This document shows, piece after piece, positions 50,440 to 61,002 of a DNA stretch of 64,000 nt; within the stretch, counting starts at the first letter, position 1; the number at the start of each line of letters is the position of its first letter. The DNA is from Mitsuaria sp. GD03876. GTDB lineage: Bacteria > Pseudomonadota > Gammaproteobacteria > Burkholderiales > Burkholderiaceae_C. The notes under the pieces were generated by a model that saw only the letters and a list, made by a program, of their open reading frames with translations, did not search any database and was not told the origin of the DNA. The stretch is taken from contig NZ_JAOCCU010000002.1 of the NCBI RefSeq assembly GCF_029840635.1, forward strand, positions 186,001 through 250,000. The letters are read 5' to 3'. The translations under genes were made by a program, and so were the position numbers.

Positions 50440-50856
50440 GGTTATTTGTCACCAATGTGTGGCGAAAACGACAAGCCGCACAGGCTAAACGAGCCCCCTC
50501 CGACCCGCCATCGGCGCCGTCCCGCGCATGCCTTCCGGCACCCGGGCACGCCGTTCGCGCACCCCTCGCAAATCGCGCGCAAACCTTACGAATCAGGCCC
50601 TTAGCTGTAAGGAAGTGGGCGATTGACGGACCAAAGTCTGCGTTCTGACACAAAAAAGTTATAGGGGTATTCCTTCCTGTTAACTGTTGCAGGGGGGGGC
50701 GGTTGCCGCCCGGAGAGCTTCCTACACTGCGCCGCACGCTGCCTGGCAAAGACCGGTCGGCGTGCCCCACCAGAGGTGCCAACGCGCCAGGGCGTTCGGG
50801 GCTTGCGGGCGTCGGTCACCACCGGCGTCGATTGAAAAACTCTGGAGATGACAAGC
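50440..50856. other. 417-bp divergent region between two secreted-protease genes
   Basis: It must contain the promoters of both protease genes. Visible features are an AT-rich stretch (50648-50690, with a TTATAG hexamer) and a run of eight G (50692-50699) about 160 bp before the subtilase ATG. No operator-like dyad or sigma-54 site was found, and no small gene. Confidence 0.5.
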
Positions 50857-52665
50857 ATGTTGCGATTGAACAAGCTCAGCCTCGCGCTGGCTGTGGGTCT
50901 CGTCACGATGGGTTCGGCCCAGGCGGGCGTGTCGTCGGTGGATGTCGACAAGGCCCCGCGTCAAATGAGCGAACAGACGGACCGTCTGATCGTGAAGTAC
51001 AAGGACGGCAGCACCGTCGTGCAAGGGCGCCTGGGCGCCGCGGTGCAGGCCCAGTCGGTGGCCAGCGAGGCCATCGGCGCCCGCGCCGAGCGGCTGCAGC
51101 AGCTGGCCGCGCCGCTGGGCGCGAAGATGACGCTGCTGCGCCAGATGGGCACCGGCGCCCACGTGTTCAAGCTGGACCGCCGCGTGTCGCTGCAGCAGCT
51201 GCGCCAGCTGGGCGAGCAGATCAAGGCGTCCGACGCCAACGTCGAGTACGTCGAGCCCGATCGCAAGATGTACCCGATGTTCACGCCGAACGATCCGTCG
51301 TTCTCGTCCCAGTGGGACCTGGGCGACGTGAACTCCGGCATCCGGGCGCAGGCCGCCTGGGAGAAGTCGACCGGCACCGGCGTGGTGGTCGCGGTGATCG
51401 ACACCGGCTACCGGCCGCACGCGGACCTGTCGGGCCAGATCGTCGCCGGCTACGACATGATCGCGGACACCGCGGTCTCGGTGGACGGCAACGGCCGCGA
51501 CAACGACCCGAGCGACCCCGGCGACTGGTACTCGGCCAACGAGTGCCAGCCCAACGACCCGGCCTCCGACTCGAGCTGGCACGGCACGCACGTGGCCGGC
51601 ACGATCGCGGCCAAGACCAACAACGGCGTCGGCGTGGCGGGCATCGCCTTCAACGCCAAGGTCCAGCCGGTGCGCGTGCTGGGCAAGTGCGGCGGCTACA
51701 CCTCCGACATCGCCGACGGCATCACCTGGGCCTCGGGCGGCAGCGTCTCGGGCGTGCCGGCCAACGCCACGCCGGCCAAGGTGCTGAACCTGTCGCTGGG
51801 CGGCGGCGGCACCTGCGACACCACGACGCAGACGGCGATCAACGGCGCCCGCTCGCGCGGCGCCAGCGTGATCGTGGCCGCGGGCAACGAGAACCAGAAC
51901 GCGTCGAACTCCAGCCCGGCGAACTGCTCGGGCGTGGTGACCGTCGCGGCGACCGACCGCTACGGCGCGCGGGCGTACTACTCGAACTACGGCTCGATCG
52001 TGACGCTGGCCGGTCCCGGCGGCGACGTGCGCGCCAGCGCCAGCAACGGCATCCTGTCGACGCTGAACGCCGGCAAGACCACCCCGGGCGCGGACAGCTA
52101 CGCGTACTACCAGGGCACGTCGATGGCGACCCCGCACGTCGCCGGCGTCGCGGCCCTGCTGTACGCCGCCAAGCCGACAGCCACGCCGGACCAGATCAAG
52201 ACCGCGCTGACGAGCAGCGCCCGTCCGTTCACCGGCACCTGCAGCCAGTGCGGCGCCGGCATGCTGGACGCGAACGCGGCGATCGACGCGATCCTGGGCG
52301 GCGGCGGCGGTGGCGGCACGGTCGCCGAGGTCGAGCCCAACGACAGCCGCGCGGCCGCGCAGGCGATCAACGCGCCGGTCACCGTCAACGGCAGCAGCTC
52401 CAGCAGCAACACCAACGACTACTTCAAGGTCGTGCTGCCGGCCGGCAAGACGCTGAGCGCGACGCTGACCCCGGCCGCCGGCAAGGACTTCGACCTGTAC
52501 CTGCAAAGCAGCACCGGCACGCAACTGCGCGCCAGCACGAACGGCGCCGGTTCGGTCGACAGCTTCTCCTACGCGAACACCGGTTCGGCTTCGGTCACCG
52601 TGTACGTGCGGGTCCTGTACTACTCGGGCACGAGCGGCACGTACACGCTCGGCCTGAACTGGTAA
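50857..52665 (+). CDS. Secreted subtilisin-like serine protease (S8) with C-terminal PPC domain
   Basis: Encodes 602 residues. I choose ATG 50857 over ATG 50848 because GGAG (50844-50847) lies 9 nt before the former and abuts the latter. Signal peptide LSLALAVGLVTMGSAQA, inhibitor-like propeptide (DRLIVKYKDGSTVVQGRLGA, ANVEYVEPDRKMYPM), then the catalytic domain with AVIDTGYRPHADL (Asp), HGTHVAGTIA (His), AAGNEN (oxyanion Asn region) and GTSMATPHVAGVAAL (Ser). A Gly linker leads to a bacterial pre-peptidase C-terminal domain (EVEPNDSRAAAQAI, DFDLYLQSS), usually removed after type II secretion. It is an extracellular protein degrader. Confidence 0.95.
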   Translation: MLRLNKLSLALAVGLVTMGSAQAGVSSVDVDKAPRQMSEQTDRLIVKYKDGSTVVQGRLGAAVQAQSVASEAIGARAERLQQLAAPLGAKMTLLRQMGTGAHVFKLDRRVSLQQLRQLGEQIKASDANVEYVEPDRKMYPMFTPNDPSFSSQWDLGDVNSGIRAQAAWEKSTGTGVVVAVIDTGYRPHADLSGQIVAGYDMIADTAVSVDGNGRDNDPSDPGDWYSANECQPNDPASDSSWHGTHVAGTIAAKTNNGVGVAGIAFNAKVQPVRVLGKCGGYTSDIADGITWASGGSVSGVPANATPAKVLNLSLGGGGTCDTTTQTAINGARSRGASVIVAAGNENQNASNSSPANCSGVVTVAATDRYGARAYYSNYGSIVTLAGPGGDVRASASNGILSTLNAGKTTPGADSYAYYQGTSMATPHVAGVAALLYAAKPTATPDQIKTALTSSARPFTGTCSQCGAGMLDANAAIDAILGGGGGGGTVAEVEPNDSRAAAQAINAPVTVNGSSSSSNTNDYFKVVLPAGKTLSATLTPAAGKDFDLYLQSSTGTQLRASTNGAGSVDSFSYANTGSASVTVYVRVLYYSGTSGTYTLGLNW

Positions 52666-54538: not shown

Positions 54539-55603
54539 TCACTTCGGACGAACGGCCCGGCGATTGGAACGGGGCAGGCGGCCCTCCCGCAACTGCTTGA
54601 CCGCGTCGCCGACGAGGTCGGCCACCAGCCGCACCTCGTCCTGCAGCGCCTCGTCGCGGTCGAGCGCCTCGTGGCTGTCGAAGTAGGGCTCGTAGTAGCC
54701 GAGGTAGCGGTCCAGACGCGCCTGGCTGCCCGCGTCGATCAACCCCATCCAGTCCAGCCAGTCGCTCAGGTTGCGGCGCTGGGACTCGACGCCGGCGACG
54801 TCGCCATGCACCACCAGCCCATAGACGCGGCCCTCGAGGTGCTTCGGATAGTCCCAACCCTTTTCCTCGATCGCCTTGGCCTCGGCGACCGTCTTGCCGT
54901 GGGTGGACGTCGGATCGGCGTTGCCGCCGTCGGCGCAGACCAGGCGGTCGATCATCAGCTTGAGCGCGCTGGGCGACTGGTACCAATAGGTGGGGGTGAA
55001 CAGGATGACGCCGTGGGCGGAGACCCAGCGCTCGTAGATCTCGTTCATCCAGTCGCTGGACTGGCCGAGCGCGTGATTCGGATAGCAGCTGCAGGGCCAG
55101 TGGCAGAGCGGCATCGCGGTGGAGACGCAACCCTTGCAGGGGTGGATCTCGCGGCCGTACTCCGAGACCATCAGGCTCAGGTCGAGCACGTCGACGATGA
55201 CGTCGTGCGAGGCCAGTTGCTCCTTGGCGATCTGGGTGAGGCGCCAGGTCTTGGACATCTCCCCGGGGCAGGTGCCGTCGTTGCGGTCGCTGCCGCAGAC
55301 CAGCAGGATCCGCGAGCGCGTGGCCGGGTCGCGCCAGCGCTGCTGGGCGAGCTTCAGGCGCTGGTGGGCGTCGAGCCATTCGACGGAGACCTCGTAGGTC
55401 GGGTCCTTGAAGCCGTTGCCGGCGGGCCGGGTGACGGGCGCCTTGCGGCCTTCCTTCATGGCCTGGAAGGCGATGGTCTCGAGCCGGGCGATGGCCTCGG
55501 CCTCGACCCGGAACGCCGGGTCGTGGAAGCGGCGCATGAAGCGCTCGTGGAACTGCTCGCGGGTCAACTCCGCGGGCTGCTGGCCCTTGCGGATCTCGGT
55601 CAT
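54539..55603 (-). CDS. Flavodoxin-fold NAD(P)H-dependent FMN reductase-like protein
   Basis: Encodes 354 residues. An N-terminal helical extension of about 95 residues (LTREQFHERFMRRFHDPAFR) precedes a flavodoxin-like domain: RSRILLVCGSDRNDGTCPGE (phosphate loop), then HPCKGCVSTAMPLCHWPCSC (unusual Cys cluster) and AHGVILFTPTYWYQSPSALK for the flavin ring. The C-terminal part (about 250-354) is helical. The Cys-rich insert resembles iron-sulfur flavoproteins but has its own spacing (C-x2-C-x8-C-x3-C-x-C). Substrate unknown; probably a cytoplasmic flavin or quinone reductase. Confidence 0.8.
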   Translation of the reverse strand: MTEIRKGQQPAELTREQFHERFMRRFHDPAFRVEAEAIARLETIAFQAMKEGRKAPVTRPAGNGFKDPTYEVSVEWLDAHQRLKLAQQRWRDPATRSRILLVCGSDRNDGTCPGEMSKTWRLTQIAKEQLASHDVIVDVLDLSLMVSEYGREIHPCKGCVSTAMPLCHWPCSCYPNHALGQSSDWMNEIYERWVSAHGVILFTPTYWYQSPSALKLMIDRLVCADGGNADPTSTHGKTVAEAKAIEEKGWDYPKHLEGRVYGLVVHGDVAGVESQRRNLSDWLDWMGLIDAGSQARLDRYLGYYEPYFDSHEALDRDEALQDEVRLVADLVGDAVKQLREGRLPRSNRRAVRPK

Positions 55604-55715
55604 CGGCGGCCCCTCGGGTGGCGATGGGCACAGTATTCGGGCCGCCTCCCGGCGACGCCGTCGGACGGCGGAGGGTTCTCGCGTTGGTCATGTCCTACGT
55701 TCGCCGTGACCGGCG

Positions 55716-55814
55716 TATGCCGTATCCAGCATGTTTGTCATTTATGCCGGATGAGGCATATTTGCAGAATATGCTTTATTCGGCATGAATGCCGTTTATG
55801 CTTGATTGAGCATG
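55716..55814. promoter_or_regulatory. Four HipB-type operators at an exact 27-bp period
   Basis: The 18-bp motif TATGC-N8-GCAT(A/G) occurs at 55716-55733, 55743-55760, 55770-55787 and 55797-55814. Start-to-start distance is 27 bp in every case, with 9-bp spacers. The whole element is AT-rich and sits just before hipB. E. coli hipBA also has four operators, of the form TATCC-N8-GGATA. The half-site here differs at one key position, so the HipB protein should have matching specificity. The promoter must lie within the array, giving tight autorepression. Confidence 0.88.
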
Positions 55815-55852
55815 TATTTCCCTTCGAGCAACTCAGCACATGGAGGTCACCC

Positions 55853-56140
55853 GTGATCTTCCGTCTTCAAACGCCCAGGCAGCTGGGGCCGCATCTGAGA
55901 GCGCTTCGCAGACGCCAAGGCATGAGCCAGGCGCAACTTGGCGAGCGGATCGGGGTCAGCCAGAGCCGCCTGGCCCGGATCGAAGGCGACCCCTCGAGCG
56001 TCAGTTTTGACCAGTTGTTGGATCTCCTCCACGCCCTCGGCACCCAACTGGTGCTGGAAACCGATGATCGAAAGCTGGGCGCCGATGGCGGCCCGCAGGG
56101 ATCGCCCGAGACGCCGTCGGCCTTGGATGAACCCTGGTGA
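55853..56140 (+). CDS. hipB: HipB-like antitoxin and autorepressor
   Basis: Encodes 95 residues from GTG 55853, with GGAGG (55842-55846) 6 nt upstream. It is an Xre-type HTH: LGPHLRALRRRQGMSQAQLG then ERIGVSQSRLARIEGDPSSV. After it comes SFDQLLDLLHALGTQLVLET, the dimer beta strand of HipB, and a flexible tail ending in Trp (ALDEPW), as E. coli HipB also ends in Trp. It neutralises HipA and represses the operon by binding the four upstream dyads. hipA follows 21 nt after the stop. Confidence 0.9.
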   Translation: MIFRLQTPRQLGPHLRALRRRQGMSQAQLGERIGVSQSRLARIEGDPSSVSFDQLLDLLHALGTQLVLETDDRKLGADGGPQGSPETPSALDEPW

Positions 56141-56161
56141 TTCGACCTCGGAGAGACATGC

Positions 56162-57493
56162 ATGGCCGCACTTCATTTGTGGATGAACGGACAGCCGGTG
56201 GGCACCTGGGAAGTCCAGTCGCGCACGGGCATCGCTTCGCTGCGCTATGAACGGTCGTGGCAGGACTCGCCACAGGGACGGGCGCTTTCCCTGTCATTGC
56301 CGTTCGATGCGGATCTCGGCTCGGAGATCGTCACGAACTACTTCGAGAACCTGCTTCCTGACAGTCGACATATCCGCCGGCGGATTCGGGAGCGGTTCCA
56401 TACGGGGTCCGACGAGGCCTTCGATCTTCTGAAGGCCATTGGCCGGGATTGCGTCGGTGCCCTGCAGATCCTTCCGCCAGACGAATCGCCGGAGGGTTGG
56501 AACCGCATCAGCGGCGATCCGCTGACGGAGTCGGAGGTCGGCCGCATCCTGGCCGGGGTGACCTCCCCGATCGCGCTCGGTCATGGCGACGAGAACGACT
56601 TCCGCGTCTCGATTGCCGGCGCGCAGGAAAAGACCGCTTTGCTCCGGATCGATGGGCAATGGCATCGACCGCGCGGGGCGACGCCCACGACCCACATCCT
56701 CAAGCTGCCGCTTGGACTGGTGGGGAATGTGCGCGCCGACATGACGGAGTCGGTGGAGAACGAGTGGCTCTGCGCGCAGATCCTGCGAGCGTTCGGCCTT
56801 CCCGTGGCCACCACGGAAATGGGCGTCTTCGGAGGCGCCAAGGCCCTGGTCGTCGAGCGCTTCGATCGCCTCTGGCAACAGGCGGCCCAGCCTTGGATCT
56901 TGCGATTGCCCCAGGAGGACTTCTGCCAGGCCATGGGATTGCCGCCGGACCTGAAGTACCAGTCCGACGGCGGCCCCACCATGCTGGGTTGCCTTCAGCA
57001 GTTGCGCATCAGCGAGCGCCTGGACGACGCCGCGACCTTCGCCATCGCGCAATTCGCGTTCTGGCTCCTCGCTGCCACGGACGGCCATGCAAAGAACTTC
57101 TCGATCCAGCATCTGCGGGCAGGCAAGTTCGCGATGACGCCGCTCTACGACGTGCTGTCGGTCTGGCCCGTCATCGGCCGGGGTGCCAACCAGATCGAGT
57201 ACCACCGCGCCAAGCTCGCCATGGGCCTGAAGTCCAAGAACATGCATTACCGGCTGAGCGAACTCCAGCCGCGGCATTGGCATGCCCTGGCCGCGCAGGC
57301 CGGCGGCGACGCCTGGCCGCGCATGCTCGACCTGGCCCATCGCGTGCCCGAGGCGCTCGACGCCGTGGAACGCCGGCTCCCCGCCGGATTCCCTGAGAGC
57401 ACCTGGCAGCCCATCGCCAGCGGCACCCGCCGCCACGCGCGACAGTTCCTCGACGACGCGCCGGGCCTCCGCCGCGCCTCCACCGCGGCCTGA
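56162..57493 (+). CDS. hipA: HipA-like serine/threonine kinase toxin
   Basis: Encodes 443 residues (E. coli HipA 440). N-terminal HipA_N domain (LWMNGQPVGTWEVQSRTGIA, ALSLSLPFDA), then the kinase core. The flexible loop reads FRVSIAGAQEKTALL with S150 and K181 at the same numbers as in E. coli. The catalytic loop is ATDGHAKNFS (D307, N312) and the metal Asp is in LYDVLS (D330). All catalytic residues are intact, so it should be active. HipA of E. coli phosphorylates glutamyl-tRNA synthetase, stops growth and promotes persistence. The GC content of hipBA looks slightly lower than that of neighbours, consistent with transfer. Confidence 0.93.
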   Translation: MAALHLWMNGQPVGTWEVQSRTGIASLRYERSWQDSPQGRALSLSLPFDADLGSEIVTNYFENLLPDSRHIRRRIRERFHTGSDEAFDLLKAIGRDCVGALQILPPDESPEGWNRISGDPLTESEVGRILAGVTSPIALGHGDENDFRVSIAGAQEKTALLRIDGQWHRPRGATPTTHILKLPLGLVGNVRADMTESVENEWLCAQILRAFGLPVATTEMGVFGGAKALVVERFDRLWQQAAQPWILRLPQEDFCQAMGLPPDLKYQSDGGPTMLGCLQQLRISERLDDAATFAIAQFAFWLLAATDGHAKNFSIQHLRAGKFAMTPLYDVLSVWPVIGRGANQIEYHRAKLAMGLKSKNMHYRLSELQPRHWHALAAQAGGDAWPRMLDLAHRVPEALDAVERRLPAGFPESTWQPIASGTRRHARQFLDDAPGLRRASTAA

Positions 57494-57539
57494 TCCCGCA
57501 GCCTGATCCCGCGGTCTCACCCCGCGGCCTCACCCCGCG
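57488..57539. repeat. Four 13-bp tandem repeats over the hipA stop codon
   Basis: GCCTGATCCCGCA, GCCTGATCCCGCG, GTCTCACCCCGCG and GCCTCACCCCGCG lie head to tail, beginning with the last codons of hipA. It is a local tandem duplication. Confidence 0.9.
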
Positions 57540-57734
57540 GCCTCGGCCGCGCCCCCACGGCCGGATCGCCCCGATCCGCCCCCTTCTATCCCCCTCGAAC
57601 GCGGGGGCAGGCCTTCCCGCACCCGGGCTTCCCCGCAACCGGCTTGTCACGAAGCGACCCTACGCTCCGGCCGTTCCTTTCCGCGCCAAGTCAAGCGCAG
57701 TTCTTCACACATTTGCTGACAAAGTTTTGCCGTA

Positions 57735-57783: not shown

Positions 57784-58509
57784 ATGAAATTCAAATCCAT
57801 CCTGCTCGCCGCGGGCCTGCTGCTCAGCGGCCTCGCCCACGCCGACACCGTCGCGCTGTGGTCCTACACCCCCGACCGCGGCGGCGTGATCTCCCCCACC
57901 AAGCCGACGTACTCCGACCACGGCGGCAGCGATTCCCGCACGCTGGGCAACGTGTCCACCGCCTTCGTCAGCCAGACCGGCTCGTCGGACACCACCGCCG
58001 GCTCGTCGGCGCTGAACACCACCGGCTACGCCGCCCAGGGCACCGGCGACCGCACCACCGGCATCCAGTTCATGGTGGACACCACCGGCTTCCAGGACAT
58101 CGTCCTGACCTTCGACCAGCGCAACAGCGGCACCGCCTCGGCCTGGACCGCGCTGCTCTACACGCTGGACGGCGAGAACTGGATCGAGGCCACCACCTTC
58201 CGCATGCTGCGCGACAGCGTCTTCGTGAAGGGCCTGGGCTTCGACTTCAGCGACATCGCCGGCGTCGACAACAACGCCAACTTCGCGATCCAGCTGGTCA
58301 GCATGTTCGCCCCGAACACGACCGCCTACGCCGGCACCGGCAACAACTACGCCACCGGCGGGACCATCCGCTACGACATGGTCCAGTTCGCCGGCACGCT
58401 GATCCCTGAGGTCGAAGTGCCCGAAGTCCCCGAGCCCGCGTCGATCGCGCTGACCCTGGCCGCCCTGGGCGTCATGGGCGCCGTGGTCCGCCGCCGCAAG
58501 CAAGCCTGA
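57784..58509 (+). CDS. PEP-CTERM sorting domain protein
   Basis: Encodes 241 residues. Signal peptide KFKSILLAAGLLLSGLAHA, a beta-rich Thr/Ser/Gly ectodomain (TTGFQDIVLTFDQRNSGTAS AWTALL region) typical of lectin-like jelly rolls, then the sorting signal VPEVPEPASIALTLAALGVM and basic tail RRRKQA. It is exported and processed by an exosortase encoded elsewhere. The ectodomain pattern (TGFQDIVLTFDQR then DGENWIEATTFR) resembles Ig/jelly-roll domains fused to secreted nucleases and phosphatases in other bacteria. The lipoprotein gene starts 18 nt downstream, so the two are one unit. Confidence 0.92.
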   Translation: MKFKSILLAAGLLLSGLAHADTVALWSYTPDRGGVISPTKPTYSDHGGSDSRTLGNVSTAFVSQTGSSDTTAGSSALNTTGYAAQGTGDRTTGIQFMVDTTGFQDIVLTFDQRNSGTASAWTALLYTLDGENWIEATTFRMLRDSVFVKGLGFDFSDIAGVDNNANFAIQLVSMFAPNTTAYAGTGNNYATGGTIRYDMVQFAGTLIPEVEVPEVPEPASIALTLAALGVMGAVVRRRKQA

Positions 58510-58527: not shown

Positions 58528-61002
58528 ATGAACTTCCGCACCCTGTTCCCCCTGTCCGGACGCGCCGTGCTGCGCGTCACCACGCTGAGCGCCATGGCCG
58601 TCGTGCTGAGCGCCTGCGGCGGCGGCTTGAGCGGCGACAAGTCGCAGCAGTCGCAGCAGCAGGCCGCCGCGCCTGACGACCGCGCCACCGCGCAAGGCGC
58701 CGACCCGTCCGCGAAGTACCCCGACCACCATGAGTTCGAGGCCGCGCTCGACGTGCCGTTCACCGGCGCCGAGTCCACCGGCGCCCGCGACTTCGCCGTC
58801 CACCTCGACTACGTGGGCGCGCCCGCCGGCACGCTGCTGGCCTGGCGCGTCGAACTGCGCTCGCCCAGCGGCGCGCTGGTCAAGCGCTGGACCGGCGTCG
58901 AGCCGTACGCCGGCGCGGTCAAGACCGTGCCGCTGAGCTGGTCCGGCCGCGGCGACGCGAGCCTGGCCGACGGCGTCTACACCGCCACGCTGACCGCGCT
59001 GAGCGCCAAGGCCGGCACCGCGCTCAAGGGCAACGGCGCCGACGCGCAGTTCGCCGAGATCCTCGCCGCGCAGCAGGCCGGCGAACTGCAGGGCCACGAG
59101 GTCGAGCAGAGCTGGAACTTCGCCCTCGGCAAGCCGGCCAAGATCGCCATGGGCACGCTGCGTCCGCTGGCGATGGGCGCCTCGGGCGAGGCCGACCAGC
59201 GCGTGCGCGCGCAGTCGGCGGCGGTGGGCGCGGGCTCCTGGCCCTACACCATCTACTACGGCAGCTTCCACGGCCAGACCAACGACTCCGACGGCGGCGG
59301 CGCCATCGGCAGCTGCAGCTCGTCGCAGCCCGCGCAGACCGGCGCCTTCGGCCCGGACGCGGCCTTCCCGTACGCGAAGAACGCCGGCCTGGACATCTTC
59401 GCCAACACCGACCACAACCACTACTTCGACGGCTCCTCCAGCACCAACGCCAGCGGCAGCGCCACCGCGGCCAAGGCCCGCTACCAGCGCGGCCTGCAGA
59501 TCGCGTCGGACTACAGCGCCGCCAACCCCGGCTTCCTGGCCGTGTACGGCATGGAATGGGGCGTCATCAGCAACGGCGGCCACCTGAACATCTTCAACAG
59601 CAACGAGCTGTTCTCGTGGGAATACAACGCCCAGAACGAGCTGTTCGGCGATCGCTACATCGCCAAGAGCGACTACGCGTCGCTCTACTCGGTGATGCGC
59701 GCGCAGGGCCTGATCGGCCAGTTCAACCACCCCGACTCGAGCGGCCAGTTCATCATCAACGGCACCGACATGGCCTACAGCGCCGATGGCGACGAGGTGA
59801 TGGTGATGTCCGAGGTGATGAACACCTCCGCGTTCTCGTCCAACACGACCGAGAGCGAGACCTCGCGCAGCTCGTATGAAGGCTCGTGGAAGAAGCTGCT
59901 GGAACGCGGCTTCCACGTCGCGCCGGCGACCAACCAGGACAACCACTGCGCCAACTGGGGCAAGTCCTACACGAACCGCACCGCGGTGCTGATCCCCACC
60001 GGCACGCCGCTGAGCAAGGCCGCGCTGGTCGACGCGCTGAAGGCGCGCCGCGTCTTCGCGACGATGGACAAGAACTCGCAACTGATCTTCAGCGCCAACG
60101 GCAAGATCATGGGCGAGCGCTTCGACAACTCGGGCGCGCTGGCCATGAACGTCGGCTTCTACAACCCGAGCGGCCGCACCGTCGTGTCGACCGAGATCTG
60201 GGAAGGCGTGCCCGGACGCAACGGCACGGTGACGCTGCTGAGCAGCAGCCCGACGGCCACCGTCACCCCGGCCAACGGCAAGCACTTCTACTACGCCAAG
60301 GTCACGCAGGATGACGGCAAGGTGCTGTGGTCCGCGCCGATCTGGGTCAACCAGGGCATCAGCGGCGGCGACACCACGCCGCCGTCGGTGACCGCCTCGG
60401 TCAGCGGCACGACCGGCACCATCACCTTCTCGGCCACCGCCAGCGACAACGTCGGCGTGACGCAAGTCGAGTTCTGGCTGGACGGCGCGCTGCGCGAGAT
60501 CGACACGACCGCGCCGTACGCGATCAGCGTCAACTCGACGCAGCTGACCAACGGCACGCACAGCCTGGTGGCCAAGGCCTATGACGCCGCGGGCAACACG
60601 ACGACCTCGGCGCCGGTGAGCTTCACCGTCACCAACGTGGTCGACGCGGCGGACGAGGTTGAGCCCAACAACTCGGTCTCCTCGGCCAACGCGCTGGGCA
60701 GCCGCAACCAGCTGACCGGCTTCATCGGCAGCGAGACCGACGTCGACTTCTTCAAGGTCACCCTGGCCGCCAACCAGCGCCTGCGCGTGGACATGACCGG
60801 CCCGACCTCGTCGAGCATCGACTACGACCTGTACGTGGTCCGCTCCACCGGCACCGGCCTGGCGCGCTCGGAAGCGGTCGGGAGCACGGAGTCGCTGACC
60901 TACCAGAATGGCGCGACGGCGCAGACGGTCTACATCAAGGTGATGTCGTACACGGGATCGAGCACGACGTCCCCGTACAAGCTGACGATCAGCTATCCCT
61001 GA
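58528..61002 (+). CDS. Lipoprotein with PHP/CehA-like hydrolase, Ig-like and PPC domains
   Basis: Encodes 824 residues. Lipoprotein signal with lipobox LSAC (AMAVVLSACGGG). A FlgD-like/FN-like beta region (about 70-170) is followed by the hydrolase core: YYGSFHGQTNDSDGGG, LDIFANTDHNHYF, VYGMEWGVISNGGHLNIFNS, IGQFNHPDSSG and APATNQDNHC. The H-x-Q-T, TDHN, E-W, GH, NHP and DNH pattern is that of CehA/McbA-type PHP metallohydrolases acting on phosphoesters. Then an Ig-like domain (about 610-700, ATASDNVGVTQVEFWLDGAL) and a C-terminal PPC domain (EVEPNNSVSSANALGS, IDYDLYVV). It is surface- or outer-membrane-anchored. The substrate is inference. Confidence 0.85.
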   Translation: MNFRTLFPLSGRAVLRVTTLSAMAVVLSACGGGLSGDKSQQSQQQAAAPDDRATAQGADPSAKYPDHHEFEAALDVPFTGAESTGARDFAVHLDYVGAPAGTLLAWRVELRSPSGALVKRWTGVEPYAGAVKTVPLSWSGRGDASLADGVYTATLTALSAKAGTALKGNGADAQFAEILAAQQAGELQGHEVEQSWNFALGKPAKIAMGTLRPLAMGASGEADQRVRAQSAAVGAGSWPYTIYYGSFHGQTNDSDGGGAIGSCSSSQPAQTGAFGPDAAFPYAKNAGLDIFANTDHNHYFDGSSSTNASGSATAAKARYQRGLQIASDYSAANPGFLAVYGMEWGVISNGGHLNIFNSNELFSWEYNAQNELFGDRYIAKSDYASLYSVMRAQGLIGQFNHPDSSGQFIINGTDMAYSADGDEVMVMSEVMNTSAFSSNTTESETSRSSYEGSWKKLLERGFHVAPATNQDNHCANWGKSYTNRTAVLIPTGTPLSKAALVDALKARRVFATMDKNSQLIFSANGKIMGERFDNSGALAMNVGFYNPSGRTVVSTEIWEGVPGRNGTVTLLSSSPTATVTPANGKHFYYAKVTQDDGKVLWSAPIWVNQGISGGDTTPPSVTASVSGTTGTITFSATASDNVGVTQVEFWLDGALREIDTTAPYAISVNSTQLTNGTHSLVAKAYDAAGNTTTSAPVSFTVTNVVDAADEVEPNNSVSSANALGSRNQLTGFIGSETDVDFFKVTLAANQRLRVDMTGPTSSSIDYDLYVVRSTGTGLARSEAVGSTESLTYQNGATAQTVYIKVMSYTGSSTTSPYKLTISYP

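Follow-up and report, generated by a model that had tools for sequence, protein, structure and literature searches.

An array of predicted HipB operators at 27-bp steps with TATGC half-sites precedes hipBA in a Mitsuaria genome and has counterparts in related hipBA operons

Introduction

HipBA is a model toxin-antitoxin system of persistence, and detailed knowledge of its operators comes from few species. According to the excerpts of the cited papers on which we draw, Escherichia coli HipB binds TATCCN8GGATA cooperatively at four sites (PMC3376134), and autoregulation has been reported for the E. coli hipBA operon (PMC3376134, PMC3920265). In the same kind of excerpts, the hipBA1 and hipBA2 promoters of Caulobacter crescentus are described as carrying a series of inverted repeats of identical sequence, whose spacing is stated to match the E. 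coli complex (PMC7029023), with three operator sites each (PMC8545095), and hence tandem inverted repeats before hipBA were already known from Caulobacter. Excerpted reports further state that HipB of the Legionella pneumophila HipBST system binds three operators upstream of its operon in EMSA (PMC10653801), and that EMSA also showed binding of HipB from Acidovorax citrulli, a relative associated with plants, to the hipBA promoter of that species (PMC11990009); the main text of the latter paper holds no operator, palindrome, inverted-repeat or binding-site wording. Among the literature matches listed, neither a HipB half-site code nor a promoter-locked period appeared in titles or the beginnings of abstracts, a scope outside which most subscription papers fell, and an earlier description is possible.

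Here, we analyze a hipBA locus within a stretch of 64,000 nucleotides from Mitsuaria sp. GD03876 (hereafter, the window). Like the O1-O4 operators of E. coli K-12 hipBA (PDB 3dnv, 4yg1, 5k98), which we represented by the operator DNA of a strain-H240 record, its array consists of four 18-bp palindromes upstream of hipB, with 5-bp arms and an 8-bp gap, and the two loci likewise share a helix-turn-helix (HTH) HipB with a C-terminal Trp and a HipA kinase.

Results

The window carries an intact-looking hipBA pair behind four exactly spaced TATGC palindromes

The locus has the make-up of a HipBA type II toxin-antitoxin module, with hipB directly upstream of hipA, both on the + strand, and tandem palindromic sites ahead of hipB (Table 1). 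HipA matched Couple_hipA (PF13657, E 2.4e-21) and HipA_C (PF07804, E 2.4e-45), as well as E. coli HipA (2wiu_A, E 1.3e-96), and HipB was recognized as a Cro/C1-type HTH protein (PF01381, E 2e-12, also HTH_31). The original prediction, made from the letters alone, had pointed to the kinase residues S150, K181, D307, N312 and D330 of HipA and to the C-terminal Trp of HipB; all five residues are indeed there and invariant across 18 aligned HipA, and the Trp is W95, a residue shared by 119 of the 120 HipB that we located. The catalytic roles of these HipA residues we take to be those of E. coli HipA. The two best fold matches of a predicted HipB model (mean pLDDT 78.7, with residues 79-93 under 50) were the HipB of E. 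coli HipBST and 4yg1, the E. coli HipB on O1-O2 (TM-score by target 0.89 for 4yg1_D). To judge from the sequence, the hipB-hipA pair appears intact.

Table 1. Features of the hipBA locus, in window positions
Feature	Position	Strand	Remarks
-35-like TTGTCA, inside linker 1 (55734-55742)	55735..55740	+	part of the sole promoter-like match in 55600-55860
-10-like CATATT, 3' edge of O2	55757..55762	+	16-bp spacer from TTGTCA
HipB operator O1 (predicted)	55716..55733	.	TATGCCGTATCCAGCATG
HipB operator O2 (predicted)	55743..55760	.	TATGCCGGATGAGGCATA; both arms fully palindromic
HipB operator O3 (predicted)	55770..55787	.	TATGCTTTATTCGGCATG
HipB operator O4 (predicted)	55797..55814	.	TATGCTTGATTGAGCATG
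Start-proximal operator slot at -29	55824..55841	.	degenerate in the window; filled in other class members (L004 -30, L005 -29, L014-L018 -28 to -30)
Shine-Dalgarno-like GGAGG	55842..55846	+	six bases before the hipB GTG
hipB, antitoxin and repressor, 95 aa	55853..56140	+	HTH_3/HTH_31; GTG start; predicted recognition helix 37-45; C-terminal Trp (W95)
hipA, HipA-type Ser/Thr kinase toxin, 443 aa	56162..57493	+	Couple_hipA and HipA_C

Upstream of hipB, TATGC-N8-GCAT(A/G) occurs four times with every step exactly 27 bp, as the original prediction had placed it, at -137, -110, -83 and -56 before the hipB start, followed by the degenerate slot at -29. The left arm is TATGC in all four copies and the right arms read GCATG, GCATA, GCATG and GCATG, O2 being the sole copy that ends in GCATA. 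TATGCN8GCATR returned five rows in the window, i.e., four sites with a palindromic one listed twice, as compared to 0.11 ± 0.35 in 100 shuffles, none of which reached five. With two mismatches permitted, the motif was not enriched in the window (5 matches, 7.7 expected), and the signal of the array hence lies in the exact form of the motif and its spacing. A repeat search of 55500-56000 returned nothing, probably because the copies are unlike each other outside the arms. Across the 6.36-Mb genome, TATGCN8GCAT gave 14 rows, or 13 distinct sites including the four of the array, and the reversed control pattern gave 3 rows. Taken together, O1-O4 are almost certainly HipB operators of the hipBA operon, with a half-site unlike the TATCC of E. 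coli.

The nine further TATGCN8GCAT sites of the genome, all outside the window, are single and scattered, and we rejected the idea of a TATGC regulon on that ground. A pattern search beside two weak HipA relatives in the same genome found no HTH partner. An open frame on the + strand (54671-56140) runs through the array, where 27 bp make nine codons, to the hipB stop; the array frame being continuous with hipB, a gene caller could assign HipB a false N-terminal extension. Directly 3' of the hipA stop codon, short GC-rich repeats (about CCCGCGGCCTCA) were seen by eye at 57494-57560, and a PEP-CTERM protein gene (57784-58509, +) and a gene whose product has PPC and bacterial Ig domains (58528-61002, +) follow downstream. 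A subtilase gene (Peptidase_S8, with a weak PPC match) lies at 50848-52665 (+).

Relatives with similar HipB residues carry the TATGC array

A HipA search yielded matches at E 1e-40 in 11 of 16 genomes of the genus and at 1e-60 in 70 of 299 genomes of the family, and at least 80 loci in contigs of named genomes, where the best locus among the matches listed came from a Rhizobacter metagenome-assembled genome (61% HipA identity). Relative to the start codon, the upstream sites of class members stand near -29, -56 and -83, to which some add -110 and -137; the locus L004 (75% HipA identity) bears five TATGC sites, with all steps exactly 27 bp. The original prediction had proposed to align homologous hipBA promoters for TATGC half-sites and 27-bp spacing. 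This check came out in its favor: where HipB has Arg39, Arg or Lys at 42 and Ser, Thr or Ala at 38, 14 of the 16 loci have TATGC-like sites at 27-bp steps, in a scan against TATGCCN6GGCATA that tolerated 4 mismatches of 12. All 14 contain one or more copies that deviate at no more than two positions, while some copies are up to four off; L020 and L047 show one 28-bp step each, and weak extra sites out of step were also picked in L001, L015 and L045. The two misses, L091 and L106, belong to a 26-bp class. The window itself shows the combination by which we propose to define a TATGC class, namely Arg39, Arg/Lys42 and Ser/Thr/Ala38 in HipB with ATGC half-sites at 27 bp.

Scanning in the reverse direction, from motif to gene, we searched 399 family genomes for two exact ATGCN8GCAT sites 27 bp apart and found them in 9, compared to 1 genome for the reversed control. 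In seven of the nine, the array lies directly before hipBA. Three of these seven were new (two of one genus), and each of the three HipB (L321, L324 and L325) combines Arg42 with Thr or Ala at 38. The other two matches (L322, L323) fall within GC-rich DNA, and the 3 kb read there contained neither a HipB nor a HipA match.

Two TATGCN8GCAT sites at 27 bp also occur in 18 viral contigs (L301-L318); the first copy is ATGCG in 14 of the 18, and one contig (L316) bears additional copies. In the stretches fetched, HipA matches were absent from all 18 and HTH matches were present in three (L302, L308, L312); these arrays are possibly operators of other repressors. Elsewhere, three hipA-like matches fall within about 8 kb of one contig (G280 C1, 406713-415010), a cluster that offers a natural case for insulation between hipBA operators.

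A 27-bp period is the commonest spacing of hipBA arrays

The spacing was analyzed in a first set of 115 distinct regions upstream of hipB, obtained after dropping four duplicates, L094 (upstream sequence too short) and L095 (no HipB), and in a hold-out of 165 loci, 158 of them with a HipB, that came down to 131 upon removal of 22 duplicates and 5 with short upstream sequence. Self-identity of the 115 regions peaked at a lag of 27 (0.401, compared to 0.303 in 112 control regions taken 350-470 bp upstream). The best lag was 27 in 74, 26 in 25 and 28 in 4 of the 115, as against 7, 1 and 3 of the 112 controls. Palindromic arrays called de novo exceeded the 95th percentile of shuffles, which kept base content and not dinucleotides, in 107 of the 115 regions, with a period of 27 in 77, 26 in 27 and 28 in 3; in the hold-out, 111 of 131 scored 13 or more (maximum of equally made shuffles 8.5), with periods of 27, 26 and 28 in 77, 23 and 11. 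The unit consists of an 18-bp operator and a 9-bp linker in the 27 class, of 17 and 9 bp in the 26 class, and of 18 and 10 bp in E. coli and Klebsiella. At least six switches of period were counted on a HipA tree with 195 rows.

Hence, the 27-bp period on which the original prediction had dwelt is exact in the window, but is not distinctive, being the commonest in the family, followed by 26 and 28 bp, and we rejected the view that it is special to this operon.

Linkers hold a -35-like element in register with the operators

The only promoter-like match in 55600-55860 is embedded in the array (Table 1), with 9 of 12 positions matching and a shuffle mean of 0.1; linker 3 holds no TTG. Similar elements are enriched in the linkers of the family, at places that shift with the period. 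Relative to shuffles within the linkers that preserved base content and not dinucleotides, TTGA or TTGC was found in 130 of 313 linkers of the 27 class (shuffle mean 23.2, maximum 34), spread over 101 of 143 loci, in 32 of 89 linkers of the 26 class (mean 5.7) and in 8 of 26 linkers of the 28 class (mean 2.2). The motif begins at linker position 3 in 80 of the 130 cases of the 27 class, at position 2 in 20 and 3 in 11 cases of the 26 class, and at positions 3 to 5, most commonly 4-5, in the 28 class. With the near-invariant TA of the operator reckoned as the start of the -10, these commonest positions give a spacer of 17 bp in the 27 and 26 classes and of 16-17 bp in the 28 class. A best promoter score of at least 9 was reached in 113 of 199 regions, compared to 31 of 199 shuffled ones. 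The repeat unit thus looks like a promoter plus an operator. In the window, the transcript would start near 55769, which would place O3 and O4 in the leader.

The original prediction had also proposed that neighboring dimers sit on alternating faces of the DNA, which might permit a wrapped repressor array. The arithmetic of the alternating faces is right, as neighbors lie about 206 degrees apart at 10.5 bp per turn, but the period is accounted for no less well by a 17-bp promoter spacer.

Half-sites vary with residues 38 and 42 of HipB

Upon refitting, 92 of the 115 first-set regions scored 13 or more, and 88 of these entered the mutual-information and code counts after L105 and L102, left out because they were fitted on the linker dyad, L047 and L076 had been removed; 85 of the 88 also had the HipA that some analyses needed. 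At least ten half-site types occur among hipBA arrays, TATGC being one of them. After the register of the 26-bp class was corrected, residues R42 and S38 of the recognition helix (44 and 40 in E. coli HipB) shared the most information with the half-site (summed mutual information of 1.93 and 1.84 bits, followed by 1.22 for the next residue), while before that correction residues 64, 38 and 42 were level (2.43, 2.42 and 2.39), with 64 first.

In the first set, Asp42 went with TCG at bases 3-5 in 11 of 11 loci, Arg42 with Ser, Thr or Ala at 38 went with ATG at bases 2-4 in 10 of 11 (the exception, L020, also bears a perfect TATGCC copy), Lys38 with Arg42 went with ACT in 13 of 13, and Gln38 with ACAG in 5 of 5. 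The hold-out gave TCG in 2 of 4 Asp42 loci (3 of 4 if CG at bases 4-5 is counted), ACT in 2 of 2 loci with Lys38 and Arg42, ACAG in 13 of 23 Gln38 loci, or 22 of 23 for a shorter ACA that was chosen after seeing the hold-out, and TATCC in 3 of 3 loci with the E. coli-like helix IKQATISNFE. Two close helices illustrate the pattern: VSQSRLARIE of L001, with TATGC, and VSQSRIADIE of L035, with TATCG, are distinguished by residues 40 and 42. Counter-examples exist as well, namely L184 (Arg42, Ala38, Thr39), the sole hold-out locus with Arg42 and Ala38, which has TATAC, and L091 and L106 (Lys42, Ser38), which have TATTC. TATGC also occurs in L185, L290 and L291, whose Glu38 helix (RQETIS or RQEMIS) does not have Arg39 and apparently constitutes another protein solution for this half-site. 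The 111 hold-out loci contain zero Arg39-type members of the window's class, a gap that the motif-first scan fills in part.

We examined how far descent accounts for this association. When HipA and the remainder of HipB were controlled for, the partial Mantel correlation between half-site and helix distances was 0.178 (none of 300 permutations as high; 85 loci), and that for HipA given the others was -0.024. Half-sites tended to change along with residue 38 or 42 among 92 disjoint nearest pairs (odds ratio 3.5, p 0.008); in the corresponding ranking of 60 columns, residue 9 came first, 42 second and 38 ninth. On supported branches, the five residue-to-half-site rules that we tried had 5, 2, 1, 2 and 5 independent pairs, numbers with which no rule was able to reach significance (median sign-test p 0.25 or worse), and the half-site moved the wrong way in hardly any pairing. 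We therefore rejected an independent-contrast proof of the residue code, as the tree holds too few independent switches. The link between residue and half-site is in part shared descent, and a code at residues 38 and 42 is likely, though not proved.

Discussion

The array is real and conserved, and the features first claimed as special to it are family-wide, such that its interest lies in the family pattern. We consider an autorepressing HipB/HipBA array with recoded specificity to be the most likely explanation. With high confidence, we regard the four sites as the operators of an autoregulated hipBA operon, whose embedded promoter HipB would repress with HipA as co-repressor, and whose TATGC specificity goes with Arg42 and, at position 38 of the recognition helix, a small residue. 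A HipB dimer would place its recognition helices on each TATGC-N8-GCATR site, presumably with contacts by residues 38 and 42, and HipB with HipA would fill the array cooperatively and silence a sigma-70-type promoter that has its -35 in linker 1 and its -10 on the edge of O2. Since the unit of an 18-bp operator and a 9-bp linker keeps a spacer of ~17 bp between the -35 of a linker and the -10 of the next operator, occupied operators would cover both promoter elements. Cooperative binding and autoregulation are here ascribed to HipB by analogy with E. coli.

As the array sits between two divergent genes, it might instead serve another regulator, e.g., one of the divergent gene at 54539-55603 (-), which encodes a member of the NADPH-dependent FMN reductase family (PF03358) and adjoins hipBA in L004 (92.5%) and L005 (89.6%) too, with hipBA as a mere neighbor. 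We consider this very improbable, given that half-sites differ between hipBA operons along with HipB residues and that the motif-first scan led directly to hipBA in most genomes; moreover, outside the window's genome the reductase-type neighbor was seen only in those two loci, yet 14 class loci have the array, a weak point as the loci span ~1 kb upstream. A different question concerns the cause of the spacing, where contacts between HipA and HipA or HipB and HipB of adjacent complexes could set the period and the promoter register could follow, which is compatible with an autorepressing array. The near-constant linker length (9, 9 and 10 bp in the 27, 26 and 28 classes) and the repeated switching of the period on the HipA tree speak for such contacts, while the -35 moves with the period and so preserves the spacer, which protein contacts alone do not predict; on balance, we find contact-driven spacing a serious possibility that we lean slightly against.

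Two further readings place the function of the repeats in the transcript or in a protein. Folded as RNA, the 99-nt array forms a single long hairpin (-47.9 kcal/mol, z -7.5), z is -8.1, -3.3, -6.1 and -4.1 for the arrays of L004, L005, L018 and L014, and one terminator-like match lies at 55781-55794 (shuffle mean 0.2), as would befit a long leader hairpin or attenuator. However, any run of palindromes folds into a long RNA hairpin, the core complementarity of mirror-image copies in the 27-bp class (0.455) does not exceed that of non-mirror copies (0.462), 367 of 5000 random class arrays reached the extra RNA pairing of the window, and 55500-57700 gave no Rfam match at the gathering threshold. 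We thus rejected a function of the hairpin, which we regard as a by-product of the palindromes, and give an RNA role slightly less credence still than another regulator. Least credible of all is that the repeats encode nine-residue units in the open frame joined to hipB: 27 bp do correspond to nine codons in a frame open from 54671, but the homologous 26- and 28-bp arrays would shift that frame, and this contradiction led us to reject a coding repeat. A GGAGG just before the GTG and the alignment of 12 HipB, whose common N-terminus starts at that GTG, also speak against it.

Beyond this locus, we tentatively propose that HipB across Pseudomonadota and beyond reads its operators via a code mainly at residues 38 and 42, such that the half-site becomes predictable, and that the 26/27/28-bp period is locked by the 17-bp promoter spacer, a generalization to which we assign a not quite even chance. 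If the 38/42 code were true, recoding would let hipBA modules diverge into mutually insulated systems that do not cross-regulate. Family-wide arrays with half-sites that track the helix would make HipB regulons, and cross-talk between the hipBA copies of one genome, predictable from sequence. A prediction at the level of a single residue follows, in that a change of Arg42 to Asp should shift the preference from TATGC to TATCG.

The comparison with known systems shows in which respects the window departs from them. The suggestion that it keeps the E. coli architecture with a changed half-site stands as to the four 18-bp sites and as to TATGC in place of TATCC, but fails on spacing, with steps of 27/27/27 bp here and an uneven 28/40/28 bp in E. 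coli; the recognition helices read VSQSRLARIE and IKQATISNFE, respectively. The proposal of a new HipB specificity class fares similarly, in that the half-site differs from that of E. coli and goes with helix residues, while TATGC is one type of many. In the excerpts cited above, the L. pneumophila operators are unlike those of the window, with six-base arms, 53-bp inter-operator gaps and a HipBST rather than HipBA system (PMC10653801), whereas the C. crescentus hipBA promoters resemble it in their tandem inverted repeats before hipBA.
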